IMG/VR virus record: IMGVR_UViG_3300043395_000190 | Span: 1 to 26,231 of that record | Direction: 5' to 3' (one strand) | DNA length: 26,231 bases | Source: a virus | Part shown: piece by piece, positions 1,648 through 4,400 of the stretch | How the letters are laid out: the number at the start of each line of letters is the position of its first letter | How positions within the stretch are numbered: the stretch's first letter is position 1 | Notes under the pieces: generated by a model | Told to the model about the DNA's origin: nothing | The model's database searches: none | The model's input: the letters and a program-made list of their open reading frames with translations, nothing else | Translations under genes and position numbers: made by a program

Positions 1648-1786
1648 GAAAGTTACTGAAGAGCAAATTGAAAAAATGATTGATCTTTGGAAAGATCGCT
1701 GGAGTACAAAGGCAATCGCTCTAGAATTAAATTTGTCTTATATGACAGTTTATTCGCACTTACGCAAGCGCTATTTAGTTGGATAA
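1640..1786 (+). CDS. mini helix-turn-helix protein (48 aa)
   Basis: A 48-residue frame beginning at an ATG inside the end of the previous gene. The sequence contains a clean HTH: 'MIDLWKDRWSTKAIALELNL' followed by 'SYMTVYSHLRKRY'. It is essentially one DNA-binding domain and nothing else, suggesting a small regulator or a partner of another protein. It ends 11 bases before a TATCTTTG promoter motif (1798-1805), so it is the last gene before the structured RNA element. Confidence 0.6.
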   Translation: MGKKVTEEQIEKMIDLWKDRWSTKAIALELNLSYMTVYSHLRKRYLVG

Positions 1787-1805
1787 TTATTTTTAATTAT
1801 CTTTG
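1779..1805 (+). promoter_or_regulatory. Bacteroidota-type promoter (TTG ... TATCTTTG)
   Basis: TATCTTTG at 1798-1805 fits the TAnnTTTG -7 element of Bacteroidota promoters; a TTG lies at 1779-1781, 16 nt upstream, slightly shorter than the usual spacing. It would start RNA near 1810-1812, exactly at the beginning of the three-hairpin element that follows. Confidence 0.55.
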
Positions 1806-1810
1806 TATTG

Positions 1811-1897
1811 TAAATGAATTATTCCTGTGTGGTAGCGAGAATAATTCCATAGGTTACTAAACCTAGCCCGACTGACTACCACCAGTTGGGCTTTTTT
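1811..1897 (+). ncRNA. candidate structured small RNA or attenuator leader
   Basis: Three adjacent hairpins fill this non-coding stretch. H1 has a perfect 9-bp stem (1816-1824 with 1839-1847) and a 14-nt loop. H2 has a 6-bp stem TAGGTT/AACCTA (1850-1855 with 1860-1865) and a 4-nt loop. H3 is a 10-bp stem with one G-U pair (1865-1874 with 1883-1892), an 8-nt loop and a T-run, i.e. an intrinsic terminator; H2 and H3 meet at base 1865. The H1 loop contains GTGGTAG (1829-1835), exactly complementary to CTACCAC (1876-1882), which is seven of the eight bases of the H3 loop, so a kissing-loop pseudoknot is possible. A promoter motif lies just upstream and the next gene starts 8 nt after the T-run. 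It could be a free sRNA of about 87 nt or an attenuating leader of the replication gene. No known RNA family recognised. Confidence 0.6.
1865..1897 (+). terminator. intrinsic terminator before the replication gene
   Basis: Stem AGCCCGACTG (1865-1874) pairs with CAGTTGGGCT (1883-1892), 10 bp including one G-U, followed by a six-T run at 1892-1897. It lies between the small HTH genes and the DUF4373 gene and forms the third hairpin of the structured RNA. Confidence 0.8.
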
Positions 1898-1904
1898 ATT
1901 TAAA

Positions 1905-2663
1905 ATGAAAAAGGAAGCTTATTACTTTTCGCACGATGCAAACGCGAAAGATGACCCTAAAATTCTAAGGCTTAGAATGGAATTAGGCTGGGAGGGTTAC
2001 GGTCTTTTTTGGGCATTAATTGAATTACTTAGAAATGAAAGCGATCACCGTATGCGAACGCATTACAAAAGCATTGCATTCGCATTGCAAACGCAAGAGG
2101 AAAGCATTAAAAAGATAATCAACGATTTTGATTTGTTTGCGATTGAAAACGATTATTTCTGGAGTGAAAGTCTTTTAAAACGTATGGAATTAAAAGAGGA
2201 ACGTTCTGAGAAGGCTAGAGAATCGGCCAAAAAACGTTGGAATAAGGATTTAGATGCGAACGCAATGCGAACGCATAGCGAACGCAATGCGGATGCAATG
2301 CAATTAAAGGAAAGTAAAGAAAAGGAAATAAAAAAAAATGAAATAAAAGAAAATGAAAATATATTAAACGAGGATACACACAATGCAATTTTTAGAGAAT
2401 TATGGAATAATAGAATTTGGCTTGAAGGTTTAGCAATGACCTGGAAAGCTGATATAAAAGAAGTACAAAATCACTTAAATACATTTAGAAAAGAATGCAT
2501 TTTAAAAGATGAATTCAAAGAAAATTCTAAATTGGCAAAAGAGCATTTTTTTAATTGGGTTAAACGAGGAAACCCAGTACCAAAAAAAGAAACTAAAGAG
2601 GAAAATATTTTCGCTAAACTTTACAGACAAGAATTGGAAAAAGAAAAACAACAAGAACAATGA
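1905..2663 (+). CDS. Lin1244/Lin1753 (DUF4373)-domain replication-type protein
   Basis: A 252-residue protein. Residues about 1-85 carry the signature of the Lin1244/Lin1753-like N-terminal domain (DUF4373): 'YYFSHDANAKDDPKILRLR', 'GWEGYGLFWALIELLRNE', then 'SLLKRMELKEERSEKARESAKKRW'. In other phages this winged-helix-like domain occurs in replication-initiation or DnaD-like proteins next to helicase-loader genes. The middle (about 115-150) is a low-complexity Lys/Glu/Asn linker; the C-terminus (about 155-250) is helical and charged, as expected for a protein-interaction module. The ATG follows TAAA, a typical Bacteroidota leader, 8 nt after the terminator at 1865-1897. Its expression therefore probably depends on readthrough or on that RNA element. 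Confidence 0.7.
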   Translation: MKKEAYYFSHDANAKDDPKILRLRMELGWEGYGLFWALIELLRNESDHRMRTHYKSIAFALQTQEESIKKIINDFDLFAIENDYFWSESLLKRMELKEERSEKARESAKKRWNKDLDANAMRTHSERNADAMQLKESKEKEIKKNEIKENENILNEDTHNAIFRELWNNRIWLEGLAMTWKADIKEVQNHLNTFRKECILKDEFKENSKLAKEHFFNWVKRGNPVPKKETKEENIFAKLYRQELEKEKQQEQ

Positions 2664-3289
2664 AAAAGACAATTTTAAAACACTTGCAAAAAATGGAATT
2701 TGTTTGCGGACTTAAACAATTTAAGGAGTATAAAGAAGAAGAAGCAAATCAATTAATTGATTGCCTACACGATTTATTTAAAAAATACGGCTGGATGACT
2801 GAGGAAAGAGTTGACTACATACTCCAGGCAGGAATGCGTGGCCAATACGGCGATTTTTACCACGTTAACGAAAAAACGGTAAATACTTGGATTATGCAAT
2901 ATTACCAGCATCACCAAAGCCAAATTGTCCAAGAAGTGCAGGCAAAAAATAATCAAGAAAAGGAAGCAACGGACGAAGAAATAAAGCACTGGATTGAGGT
3001 TGGCAAAAATATATTTAAAGAAAATTATAAATTGGCCAAAGAAACAGGAACTTGCGCTGATCTTAGCGAATGGGGAATAAATTGGTTTAACAAATTTCAG
3101 GAAAGAGGAATTTTAAAACCTTGGGAGTTTGACGTTGAGGAAATAGAAAGCCAAGAGCGAAAAAATATGCGGTTAATTAACACTTATGTAAATGAGGCAA
3201 CGGTTGGCTCTAGATCACGGAATAAAATCTGGAAGCTTTTTATTTTAAAGTCAATTAATGAAAATGCTAAACTTGACGAAATAATATGA
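2660..3289 (+). CDS. hypothetical protein, probably replication-associated
   Basis: A 209-residue, mostly helical protein coupled to the DUF4373 gene through ATGA (2660-2663). Its N-terminal 90 residues include 'CGLKQFKEYKEEEANQLIDC', 'GWMTEERVDYILQAGMRGQY' and 'NEKTVNTWIMQYYQHHQ'; the rest is a charged helical segment. I do not recognise the family. The position directly after an initiator-type gene suggests a helper such as a helicase loader or an initiator partner, but there is no Walker A motif, so it is not an ATPase of the DnaC type. Stop overlaps the next start (ATGA at 3286-3289). Confidence 0.65.
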   Translation: MKKTILKHLQKMEFVCGLKQFKEYKEEEANQLIDCLHDLFKKYGWMTEERVDYILQAGMRGQYGDFYHVNEKTVNTWIMQYYQHHQSQIVQEVQAKNNQEKEATDEEIKHWIEVGKNIFKENYKLAKETGTCADLSEWGINWFNKFQERGILKPWEFDVEEIESQERKNMRLINTYVNEATVGSRSRNKIWKLFILKSINENAKLDEII

Positions 3290-3477
3290 CTATCTTTTTA
3301 GGTGATCAAGCTAAACGGTTGTACTATATGCGCGACATTCCGTTAGGCTCTATAGGAGTATTTATGAGCCATAAGCAAGAATTTATTTATTGGTATTGCA
3401 ATGGTTATACTTTTGATACTGGCTTTGCCTATACAGAGGCGGAAGCTTTACAAATAGCAAAAAGAAATTTTAAATGA
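3286..3477 (+). CDS. small hypothetical protein (63 aa)
   Basis: A 63-residue protein rich in aromatic residues ('EFIYWYCNGYTFDTGFAYTEAEAL') ending 'QIAKRNFK'. It may form a small beta sheet followed by a helix. No family recognised. ATGA overlaps on both sides (3286-3289 and 3474-3477) tie it to the replication-type gene upstream and the DNA methyltransferase downstream. Confidence 0.6.
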   Translation: MTIFLGDQAKRLYYMRDIPLGSIGVFMSHKQEFIYWYCNGYTFDTGFAYTEAEALQIAKRNFK

Positions 3478-4400
3478 GGCACGGCTCATTATTTTCTGGA
3501 ATAGGAGGATTTGACCTAGCCTCTGAATGGATGGGTTGGGAAAACGTATTTCATTGTGAATGGAATAAATTTGGACAGAAGGTTTTAAAATATTATTGGC
3601 CTAAAGCAATAACTTACAATGACATTACCAAAACAGATTTCTCTATTCACAGAGGAACAATCGACATCATTACCGGAGGATTCCCTTGCCAACCGTACTC
3701 AATGGCTGGAAAACGACTCGGAAAAGAAGACGAGCGCCATTTATGGCCCCAGATGCTTAGAGCAATTCGAGAGATTCAACCGACCTGGGTTGTGGGCGAA
3801 AACGTTCGCGGGCTTACTAATTGGAATGGAGGGCTGGTATTCGACGAAGTGCAGGCTGACTTGGAAACTCAAGGCTACGAAGTCACACCGTTTCTACTTC
3901 CTGCTTGTGCCGTTAACGCTCCCCATAGAAGGGACAGAATTTGGTTTGTTGCATACAATGCTACCTACTCCGACTGCAAACGATATAATGAGTTCTCAGG
4001 AAGAAAGAATAATTATAAAGAACAATCGATTTATAAAGAAAAACAAAGTATCAGGGACGGAATTTGGGCCGAAATTGGTGGATATAGCGAGACTCCTTCC
4101 AACTCCAAATTCTTACGACTGGAACACGGCGAGAAGCGAAGAGGCTTTACAGAAAGCAAAGGAAAGACACAAACAAAAGGGAGTAGTTTTACAAAACAGC
4201 CTAAGACAAATTGCTGGACAAGGTTCCCAACTGTCTCCCCAATTTGTGATGGAGATGATGGGCTTTCCGACAGACTGGACATTATTACCTTTCCTAAATG
4301 GAGAAACGAATCAATTAAAGCAGGAGGAAACGCAGTAGTTCCGCAAGTAGTTTATCAAATTTTTAAAGCAATTCAACAATACAATAACTTAAACAATTAA
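3474..4400 (+). CDS. DNA C5-cytosine methyltransferase
   Basis: A 308-residue enzyme that would transfer a methyl group from SAM to C5 of cytosine in DNA. The standard motifs are present in order: motif I 'LFSGIGGFDLA' (6-16), motif IV 'GGFPCQPYS' with the catalytic Cys at about 72, motif VI 'ENVRG' (109-113), motif VIII 'HRRDRIWFVA' (151-160, HRR in place of QRR), and a C-terminal 'GNAVVPQVVYQIFKAI' (285-300). The target-recognition region between about 165 and 270 is short, polar and low in complexity. This is exactly where a second conserved-looking protein is encoded in the +1 frame. Phages use such enzymes to escape host restriction; specificity cannot be read here. No partner endonuclease is visible, so it is probably an orphan methyltransferase. 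Confidence 0.9.
   Translation: MRHGSLFSGIGGFDLASEWMGWENVFHCEWNKFGQKVLKYYWPKAITYNDITKTDFSIHRGTIDIITGGFPCQPYSMAGKRLGKEDERHLWPQMLRAIREIQPTWVVGENVRGLTNWNGGLVFDEVQADLETQGYEVTPFLLPACAVNAPHRRDRIWFVAYNATYSDCKRYNEFSGRKNNYKEQSIYKEKQSIRDGIWAEIGGYSETPSNSKFLRLEHGEKRRGFTESKGKTQTKGSSFTKQPKTNCWTRFPTVSPICDGDDGLSDRLDIITFPKWRNESIKAGGNAVVPQVVYQIFKAIQQYNNLNN
3619..4338 (+). CDS. overprinted protein within the methyltransferase gene (+1 frame)
   Basis: A 239-residue frame lying entirely inside the cytosine methyltransferase gene, shifted +1. It does not look like a random shadow: it has 'PGLWAKTFAGLLIGMEGWYS', 'CRLTWKLKATKSHRFYFLLVP', two PTP blocks ('LPTPTANDIMSS' at 115-126 and 'LPTPNSYDWNTARSEE' at 160-175) and 'SQLSPQFVMEMMGFPTDWT' (203-221). 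From memory, the same series (TWK...LVP, LPTPT, LNPQFVEWMMGFP.DWT) recurs in phage proteins overlapping cytosine methyltransferase genes, often annotated as hypothetical or as methyltransferase fragments. Start is the ATG of MTLPKQISLF between motifs I and IV of the host frame. Its function is unknown; a role tied to methylation or DNA binding is only a guess. Confidence 0.6.
   Translation: MTLPKQISLFTEEQSTSLPEDSLANRTQWLENDSEKKTSAIYGPRCLEQFERFNRPGLWAKTFAGLLIGMEGWYSTKCRLTWKLKATKSHRFYFLLVPLTLPIEGTEFGLLHTMLPTPTANDIMSSQEERIIIKNNRFIKKNKVSGTEFGPKLVDIARLLPTPNSYDWNTARSEEALQKAKERHKQKGVVLQNSLRQIAGQGSQLSPQFVMEMMGFPTDWTLLPFLNGETNQLKQEETQ

Follow-up and report, generated by a model that had tools for sequence, protein, structure and literature searches.

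We describe here a predicted leader of about 87 nt, directly upstream of the replication initiation gene of a Bacteroidota-type phage. Judged by its homologues, it appears to be a switch of RNA for replication genes that has not been described before. The loop of its 5' hairpin is complementary to the loop of its own intrinsic terminator, and comparative data make this predicted pairing certain, because the homologues retain the complementarity through compensatory change despite changed bases. In the reading that we favor, to which we give a probability of about 0.5, the leader is an attenuator in which loop pairing would set the level of readthrough into the gene, most likely as a self-antisense, allele-specific feedback.

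Layout of the leader

The window, that is the whole stretch of DNA analysed (26,231 nt), is a 26-kb IMG/VR virus record, and the TerL, portal, capsid and tail genes downstream in it indicate a tailed phage. The element lies between a small HTH gene, which ends at about position 1786, and the PF14297/DUF4373 gene, and its promoter overlaps the last codons of the HTH gene (Table 1).

Table 1. Features of the leader and the gene that follows it, in window coordinates.
Feature	Position	Strand	Description or basis
Promoter	1779-1805	+	-33 TTG 1779-1781, 16-nt spacer, -7 box TATCTTTG 1798-1805
Predicted leader/small RNA, ~87 nt	1811-1897	+	putative 5' start; covariance model match 1811-1904
Hairpin H1	1816-1847	+	predicted fold; stem pairs changed yet kept in homologues
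H1 loop core GTGGTAG	1829-1835	+	pairs with 1876-1882; complementary in 38/38 homologues
Hairpin H2 (spacer hairpin)	1851-1864	+	predicted fold; AGGTT[ACTA]AACCT
Hairpin H3, intrinsic terminator stem-loop	1866-1891	+	stem GCCCGACTG/CAGTTGGGC; 8-nt loop ACTACCAC
Terminator loop core CTACCAC	1876-1882	+	exact complement of H1 loop core
Terminator T-run	1892-1897	+	sequence reading
PF14297 gene (Lin1244_N, formerly DUF4373)	1905-2663	+	PHROG annotation: replication initiation protein

The -7 box agrees with the consensus published for Bacteroidota (-7 TAnnTTTG, -33 TTTG; PMC7366714) and is kept in the homologues, in which TATATTTG occurs 27 times, TATATTCG seven times, TATCTTTG twice and TATATTTA once, and the promoter spacer is mostly 17 nt. 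The stem of H1, GAATTATTC/GAATAATTC, is followed by a T.G and a G-C pair above a C.A mismatch and closes on the loop TGTGGTAG. Since only 7 nt separate the end of the T-run from the ATG, there is no alternative promoter for the PF14297 gene, and its protein would be made only via readthrough.

Most of this layout had been proposed from the sequence alone. The promoter motif, the three hairpins, the terminator with its T-run and the exact 7-nt complement of the two loops were all confirmed, and the gene described as a DUF4373 replication-type gene is a PF14297 member annotated in PHROG as above; the distance to the gene had been given as 8 nt and is corrected here to 7 nt. The arrangement had also been called hard to explain by chance. 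For the fold this holds: the predicted minimum free energy structure consists of exactly H1, H2 and H3 (-31.3 kcal/mol, z = -4.86), and none of 200 shuffles was as stable. The loop match, taken alone in the one sequence, is only suggestive, as a complement of at least 7 to the 8-nt terminator loop arose in the leader in 0.5% of shuffles, and one as good arose between two wide 45-nt zones in 8%; it is the homologues that make it certain.

Several neighboring genes were noted in passing. A Mu Gam-like end-protection protein (phrog_253) is encoded at 39-521, and the sampled contigs of the phage group show no transposase; a related contig (G004) encodes an Erf-like annealing protein. A conserved gene of 209 aa, of unassigned family, lies at 2660-3289 and is also found 3' of the swapped-in initiators in L544 and L623. 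It is followed in the window by a C-5 cytosine DNA methylase gene at 3474-4400.

Covariation and exchange of the loops

With the downstream protein as the query we obtained 76 related loci, from which 38 distinct homologous RNAs were compared. Close relatives with an intact gene start showed the identical order of promoter, hairpins, terminator and ATG. The loop complement was intact in all 38 distinct RNAs (IMG/VR homologues), with 7 to 9 bp in each, although five loop alleles were present (GTGGTAG, GTGAGAG, GTAGGAG, GTGGAAG and GTCGGAG). Loop positions 3 (GC/AU/CG), 4 (GC/AU) and 5 (UA/GC/AU) varied with no broken pair at any of them, and pairing extended to 9 bp in the GTGAGAG and GTAGGAG alleles. 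MAFFT misaligned the H1 loop between allele groups, so the pairs between loops were tallied in Python after the alignment had been anchored. When partner loops were reassigned among the sequences, pairing fell from 100% to a mean of 86%, and the best of 2000 swaps reached 91%. Stem pairs covaried as well, with T-A/A-T at position 2 and C-G/T-A at position 6 of H3. These data indicate, with little room for doubt, that the loop-loop pairing is under selection. One check named by the sequence-only reading was whether stems and paired loops covary, and both do; loss of complementarity with the stems kept, which it gave as the contrary outcome, was never seen in the homologues.

The loop core, GT-NNN-AG, did not vary in the 38 RNAs at positions 1, 2, 6 and 7 (G, T, A and G). 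This framework is unexplained by pairing alone, which would permit change.

The loop pair is also an inverted repeat upstream of a replication gene and could in principle act at the DNA level, as operator or origin sites. The repeats, however, lie exactly in hairpin loops, between the promoter and the T-run, and their sequence changes while the symmetry is kept across phages with different initiators, so that we give this reading a negligible probability. An SD/anti-SD reading of GAGGTGA, which matches the 16S 3' end, was rejected, as the allele of the window and others do not fit.

A separate RNA carrying GTGGTAG or CTACCAC had been suggested as a possible target. The search of one strand for these 7-mers covers both strands because they are reverse complements of each other, and no second occurrence of either was found in the window, nor in 7 of the 15 related contigs (8 of 16 contigs). 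A trans target elsewhere in the phage was rejected, as none was found. In each close-family contig the covariance model recognized a single site for the RNA, in front of the replication gene, and its weak extra matches were reverse-strand echoes of the same site. With no other copy of either loop sequence in half of the contigs and a single RNA per contig, the partner would be the RNA itself, in the same molecule or in another copy.

The alleles turn over rapidly. At least 17 allele changes are needed on the tree of the 38 downstream genes, which approaches what random assignment gives (shuffled mean 21.4), and alleles differed in 77 of 111 pairs whose downstream genes are at least 88% identical, including L035/L039, in which the identity is 97.1%. 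The flanking sequence is mosaic as well, suggesting that whole RNA cassettes are carried by recombination, and matched loop pairs always move or change together. Every contig holding two such RNAs carries two different alleles (7/7), a count that is suggestive of a preference for differing alleles inside one genome and is not significant given the ascertainment.

Occurrence before other genes and in cultured phages

The architecture is more widespread than the sequence-only reading had judged. The same design, in unrelated sequence, precedes distant PF14297 genes (L070/L071, L306, L311, L322, L461, L506, L277 and L327). The loops of L070 and L071, GGTCTCAC/GTGAGACC and CGTCTCAC/GTGAGACG, show compensatory change between the two, and loop pairing reaches 10 bp in both L322 and L461. 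In L461, L277 and L327 the 5' strand and the terminator form a predicted classical H-type pseudoknot around a weak, large-looped terminator.

A separate feature was seen in the roughly 100 nt that lead up to the PF14297 start codon in L277/L273, where the terminator loop complements the 5' leader and, in addition, a repeat of that leader sequence located at the start codon (GGACACCA / TGGTGTCC / GGACACCATG; GACTGCC / GGCGGTC / GACTGCC). This suggests that the start site may be sequestered directly in this branch.

The pseudoknots bear on whether the device could act in cis only, with the 5' loop pairing with the terminator loop of the same transcript to tune termination, or to time or stabilise the RNA, the released RNA being idle. 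Complementarity lies inside one short transcript in every family, the pseudoknot would help a weak terminator close in cis, and H2, as a conserved spacer, suits a single folded molecule. But rapid exchange of a few matched alleles is not demanded by a cis device, and in the close family the full 7-bp kiss appears strained, with 28 stacked bp set by rough estimate against a linker of about 45-57 angstrom. We consider this reading less probable than not, yet it competes strongly with the favored one, above all where L461, L277 and L327 are concerned.

Scanning IMG/VR with three loop alleles located the RNA in the same genomic slot before non-homologous genes, namely DUF6291 (PF19808), DnaD-like helicase loaders (phrog_2514, phrog_1701), primases (DUF3987, BT4734-like), and NUMOD4-HNH and GIY-YIG endonucleases. 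That the RNA precedes non-homologous replication genes suggests that its constant target is the expression of the gene in the slot and not the binding of one protein. Free-standing homing-endonuclease genes with their own promoter and a minimal leader (short H1, no H2) were observed in L676, L705, L677, L710 and L749. Another contig, L609, has a kissing leader before an HNH gene and, at 389-425, a match to the Rfam DUF805b RNA (40.1 bits).

A loop-agnostic scan of 5.4 Mb of collected sequence, which is redundant, was partly fetched by loop pattern and contributes such loci to the matches, gave 104 distinct promoter-bearing matches against 5 in the reversed control. When only eight larger phage contigs were scanned, with a preceding version of the method, there were nine matches and none in reversed sequence. 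New alleles were GTCGTAG, GTGGACG, GTAGCAG and GTCGCAA.

A very stable, compact fold with its own promoter and terminator would also be expected of a stable phage sRNA, in which the loop pairing is a structural lock, the function lies elsewhere (with a host RNA or protein) and the downstream gene is incidental. We regard this as improbable, as in many families that are unrelated to one another the RNA immediately precedes the start codon of a replication or homing-endonuclease gene, its loops vary freely while matching each other, and no target was found in the phage.

The leader was seen in 0 of 11 loci of chromosomal Bacteroidota PF14297 genes that were placed and read, and in EF62phi, LBR48 and one Porphyromonas phage only short gaps precede the PF14297 gene. 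There was no promoter-bearing match in the first 50 kb each of Cellulophaga phi38:1 and phi10:1 or in 37 kb of Bacteroides BS-TP2. The covariance model gave no match in 296 Bacteroidota genomes, a search whose empty answer shows nothing. The records in which the leader was sought are mostly fragments.

Cultured examples were reached only via protein homology and architecture, as blastn of the leader against cultured phages gave no homologous match. Among cultured viruses, the element was found in phages of Flavobacterium, Polaribacter, Olleya and Cellulophaga. Five isolate types chosen only by DUF6291 homology all showed 7 to 9 bp (Fisher combined P = 4e-5), with the loops GTGAGACG (lillamy group), TGAGAGC (elemoC), CGGGCAGG (11b), GTGGTGG (Harreka_1) and CTCTCACAA (phi13:2). 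Polaribacter P12002L has GTCGTAG before an annotated replication protein, and Flavobacterium FCL-2 has CATCCAC before gp54. Over 19 leaders, all paired with at least 7 bp, compared with 25 of 342 cross-pairings (combined P 2e-14); because complementarity had served to find some of the 19, the less biased test is that on the five isolates.

The RNA of lillamy9-1 differs little from that of mumin9-1/snusmum9-1, and the loop changes A to G and G to A (GTGAGACG in lillamy, GTGGAACG in mumin) are matched by T to C and C to T in the partner, which at the sequence level is direct compensatory evidence in cultured viruses. One further matched loop change is found in morran9-1.

Proposed mechanism and comparison with known systems

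Position and terminator together make it probable that the leader controls termination. This agrees with what the sequence-only reading had proposed, a new phage sRNA or a leader whose loop-loop pairing governs termination and, through it, replication; the former claim and the latter are alike supported as to the predicted RNA and its pairing, the effect on termination being presumed. In the attenuator model, a strong Bacteroidota-type promoter would drive a short RNA that normally ends at the intrinsic terminator before the start codon, and the replication initiation protein would be made only from readthrough transcripts. The 5' hairpin loop pairs with the terminator hairpin loop, as the covariation shows, and this pairing would set the level of readthrough. 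The terminated RNA would be released, and either of its loops may engage the complementary loop of nascent leaders from other genome copies, so that output would fall as copy number and RNA rise and only phages of the same allele would affect each other. We favor self-antisense feedback because no other target was found, because the alleles turn over, and because of what the leader would control, namely initiators and endonucleases, which fit as genes wanted early and briefly.

Several points count against parts of this model. The close-family terminator looks strong unaided, the loops could pair while the terminator stem stays formed, which leaves no obvious mutually exclusive antiterminator, and the invariant core positions go beyond what base pairing requires. 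Action in trans, which is suggested by the rapid allele exchange, the absence of another partner and the rough geometry, has by our estimate slightly less than an even chance; many members keep H2, for which action in trans has no need. A search of 25 records, most of them fragments, gave no match to a tyrosine integrase or a ParA-type gene, and hence nothing that points directly to lysogeny or to plasmid maintenance, for which copy control is classically needed.

A bolder extension, which we hold to be rather unlikely, is a phage-phage recognition code, in which the fixed loop framework (GT-NNN-AG in the main family) and the variable core would make specificity alleles. A phage that is resident or co-infects would, through its terminated RNA, shut off initiators and homing endonucleases whose allele matches its own. 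Incompatibility or superinfection exclusion would then be allele-specific and mediated by a self-complementary RNA, and such a code would explain the swapping of alleles among close relatives.

If the attenuator model is right, a large set of Bacteroidota phages would run the first step of replication by a very small RNA logic, with a terminator and its own regulator in one transcript. To our knowledge, how such phages time and limit replication and exclude one another is largely unknown. Carriers with defined hosts (lillamy, mumin, morran, elemo, 11b, P12002L, FCL-2, Harreka_1 and phi13:2) make the model directly testable, the natural compensatory allele pairs are ready-made mutants, and the leaders could provide orthogonal RNA attenuators for Bacteroidota genetics.

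No match to Rfam 15 was found in the window at the gathering score (the best relaxed match was azaaromatic, on the minus strand, with 21.5 of 45 bits), nor over the RNA in 20 related loci and 8 cultured-phage loci. The searched literature, of which coverage is incomplete, gave no description of this element. A leader with a terminator and pseudoknot-like pairing might suggest a ligand-binding riboswitch, but only complementarity is conserved, with no sequence core common to the families, and this, together with the Rfam result, makes that reading exceedingly improbable. The leader shares promoter, structured leader, terminator before the start codon and covariation with intrinsic-terminator attenuators in general; its regulated readthrough is presumed.

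RNA I and RNA II of ColE1 recognize each other by 7-nt kissing loops, and their matched loops diversify as specificity groups. The leader resembles them in its 7-nt loop-loop match and its diversified matched loops, whereas the ColE1 loops reside in a sense and an antisense RNA, and what they control is the formation of a primer and not termination ahead of a protein-coding gene. The pRNA of phi29 has interlocking loops, two mutually complementary in one phage RNA; it is a packaging motor RNA with a 4-nt match, at another location, and no terminator loop is involved. Two complementary loops in one molecule, possibly beyond each other's reach, could likewise let the RNA dimerise or form rings, as phi29 pRNA and the GOLLD and ROOL RNAs do, and PMC12286853 describes homo-oligomers of some phage-associated RNAs. 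We think this very unlikely here, as the RNA is short, leads replication and not packaging genes, and has no other conserved architecture.

The closest analogues are the P4 CI RNA and the plasmid antisense attenuators. P4 immunity involves an untranslated leader (seqA/seqB/seqC) before replication genes and premature termination, in which an RNA derived from the leader acts on the leader through RNA-RNA complementarity inside it (PMC4825925). The untranslated leader and the predicted premature termination upstream of a replication gene are alike in the two. The CI RNA, however, is released from the leader by processing and has two flanking sites to pair with, seqA and seqC, whereas the element has one complementary pair only, which joins the loop of the 5' hairpin to that of the terminator at which the RNA ends; a third copy, at the start codon, is present in L273/L277 and absent from the window, and no lysogenic state is evident for the phage in records that are mostly fragmentary. 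The pT181 countertranscript and pIP501 RNAIII (references in PMC5703833) cause termination before a replication-initiator gene, and the leader is like them in the place of termination and in the proposed copy-dependent RNA control. The element belongs to neither group, because the separate regulator that defines them is absent: pT181 and pIP501 use a separate opposite-strand RNA, whereas here the leader is its own complement and an antisense transcript is unneeded.
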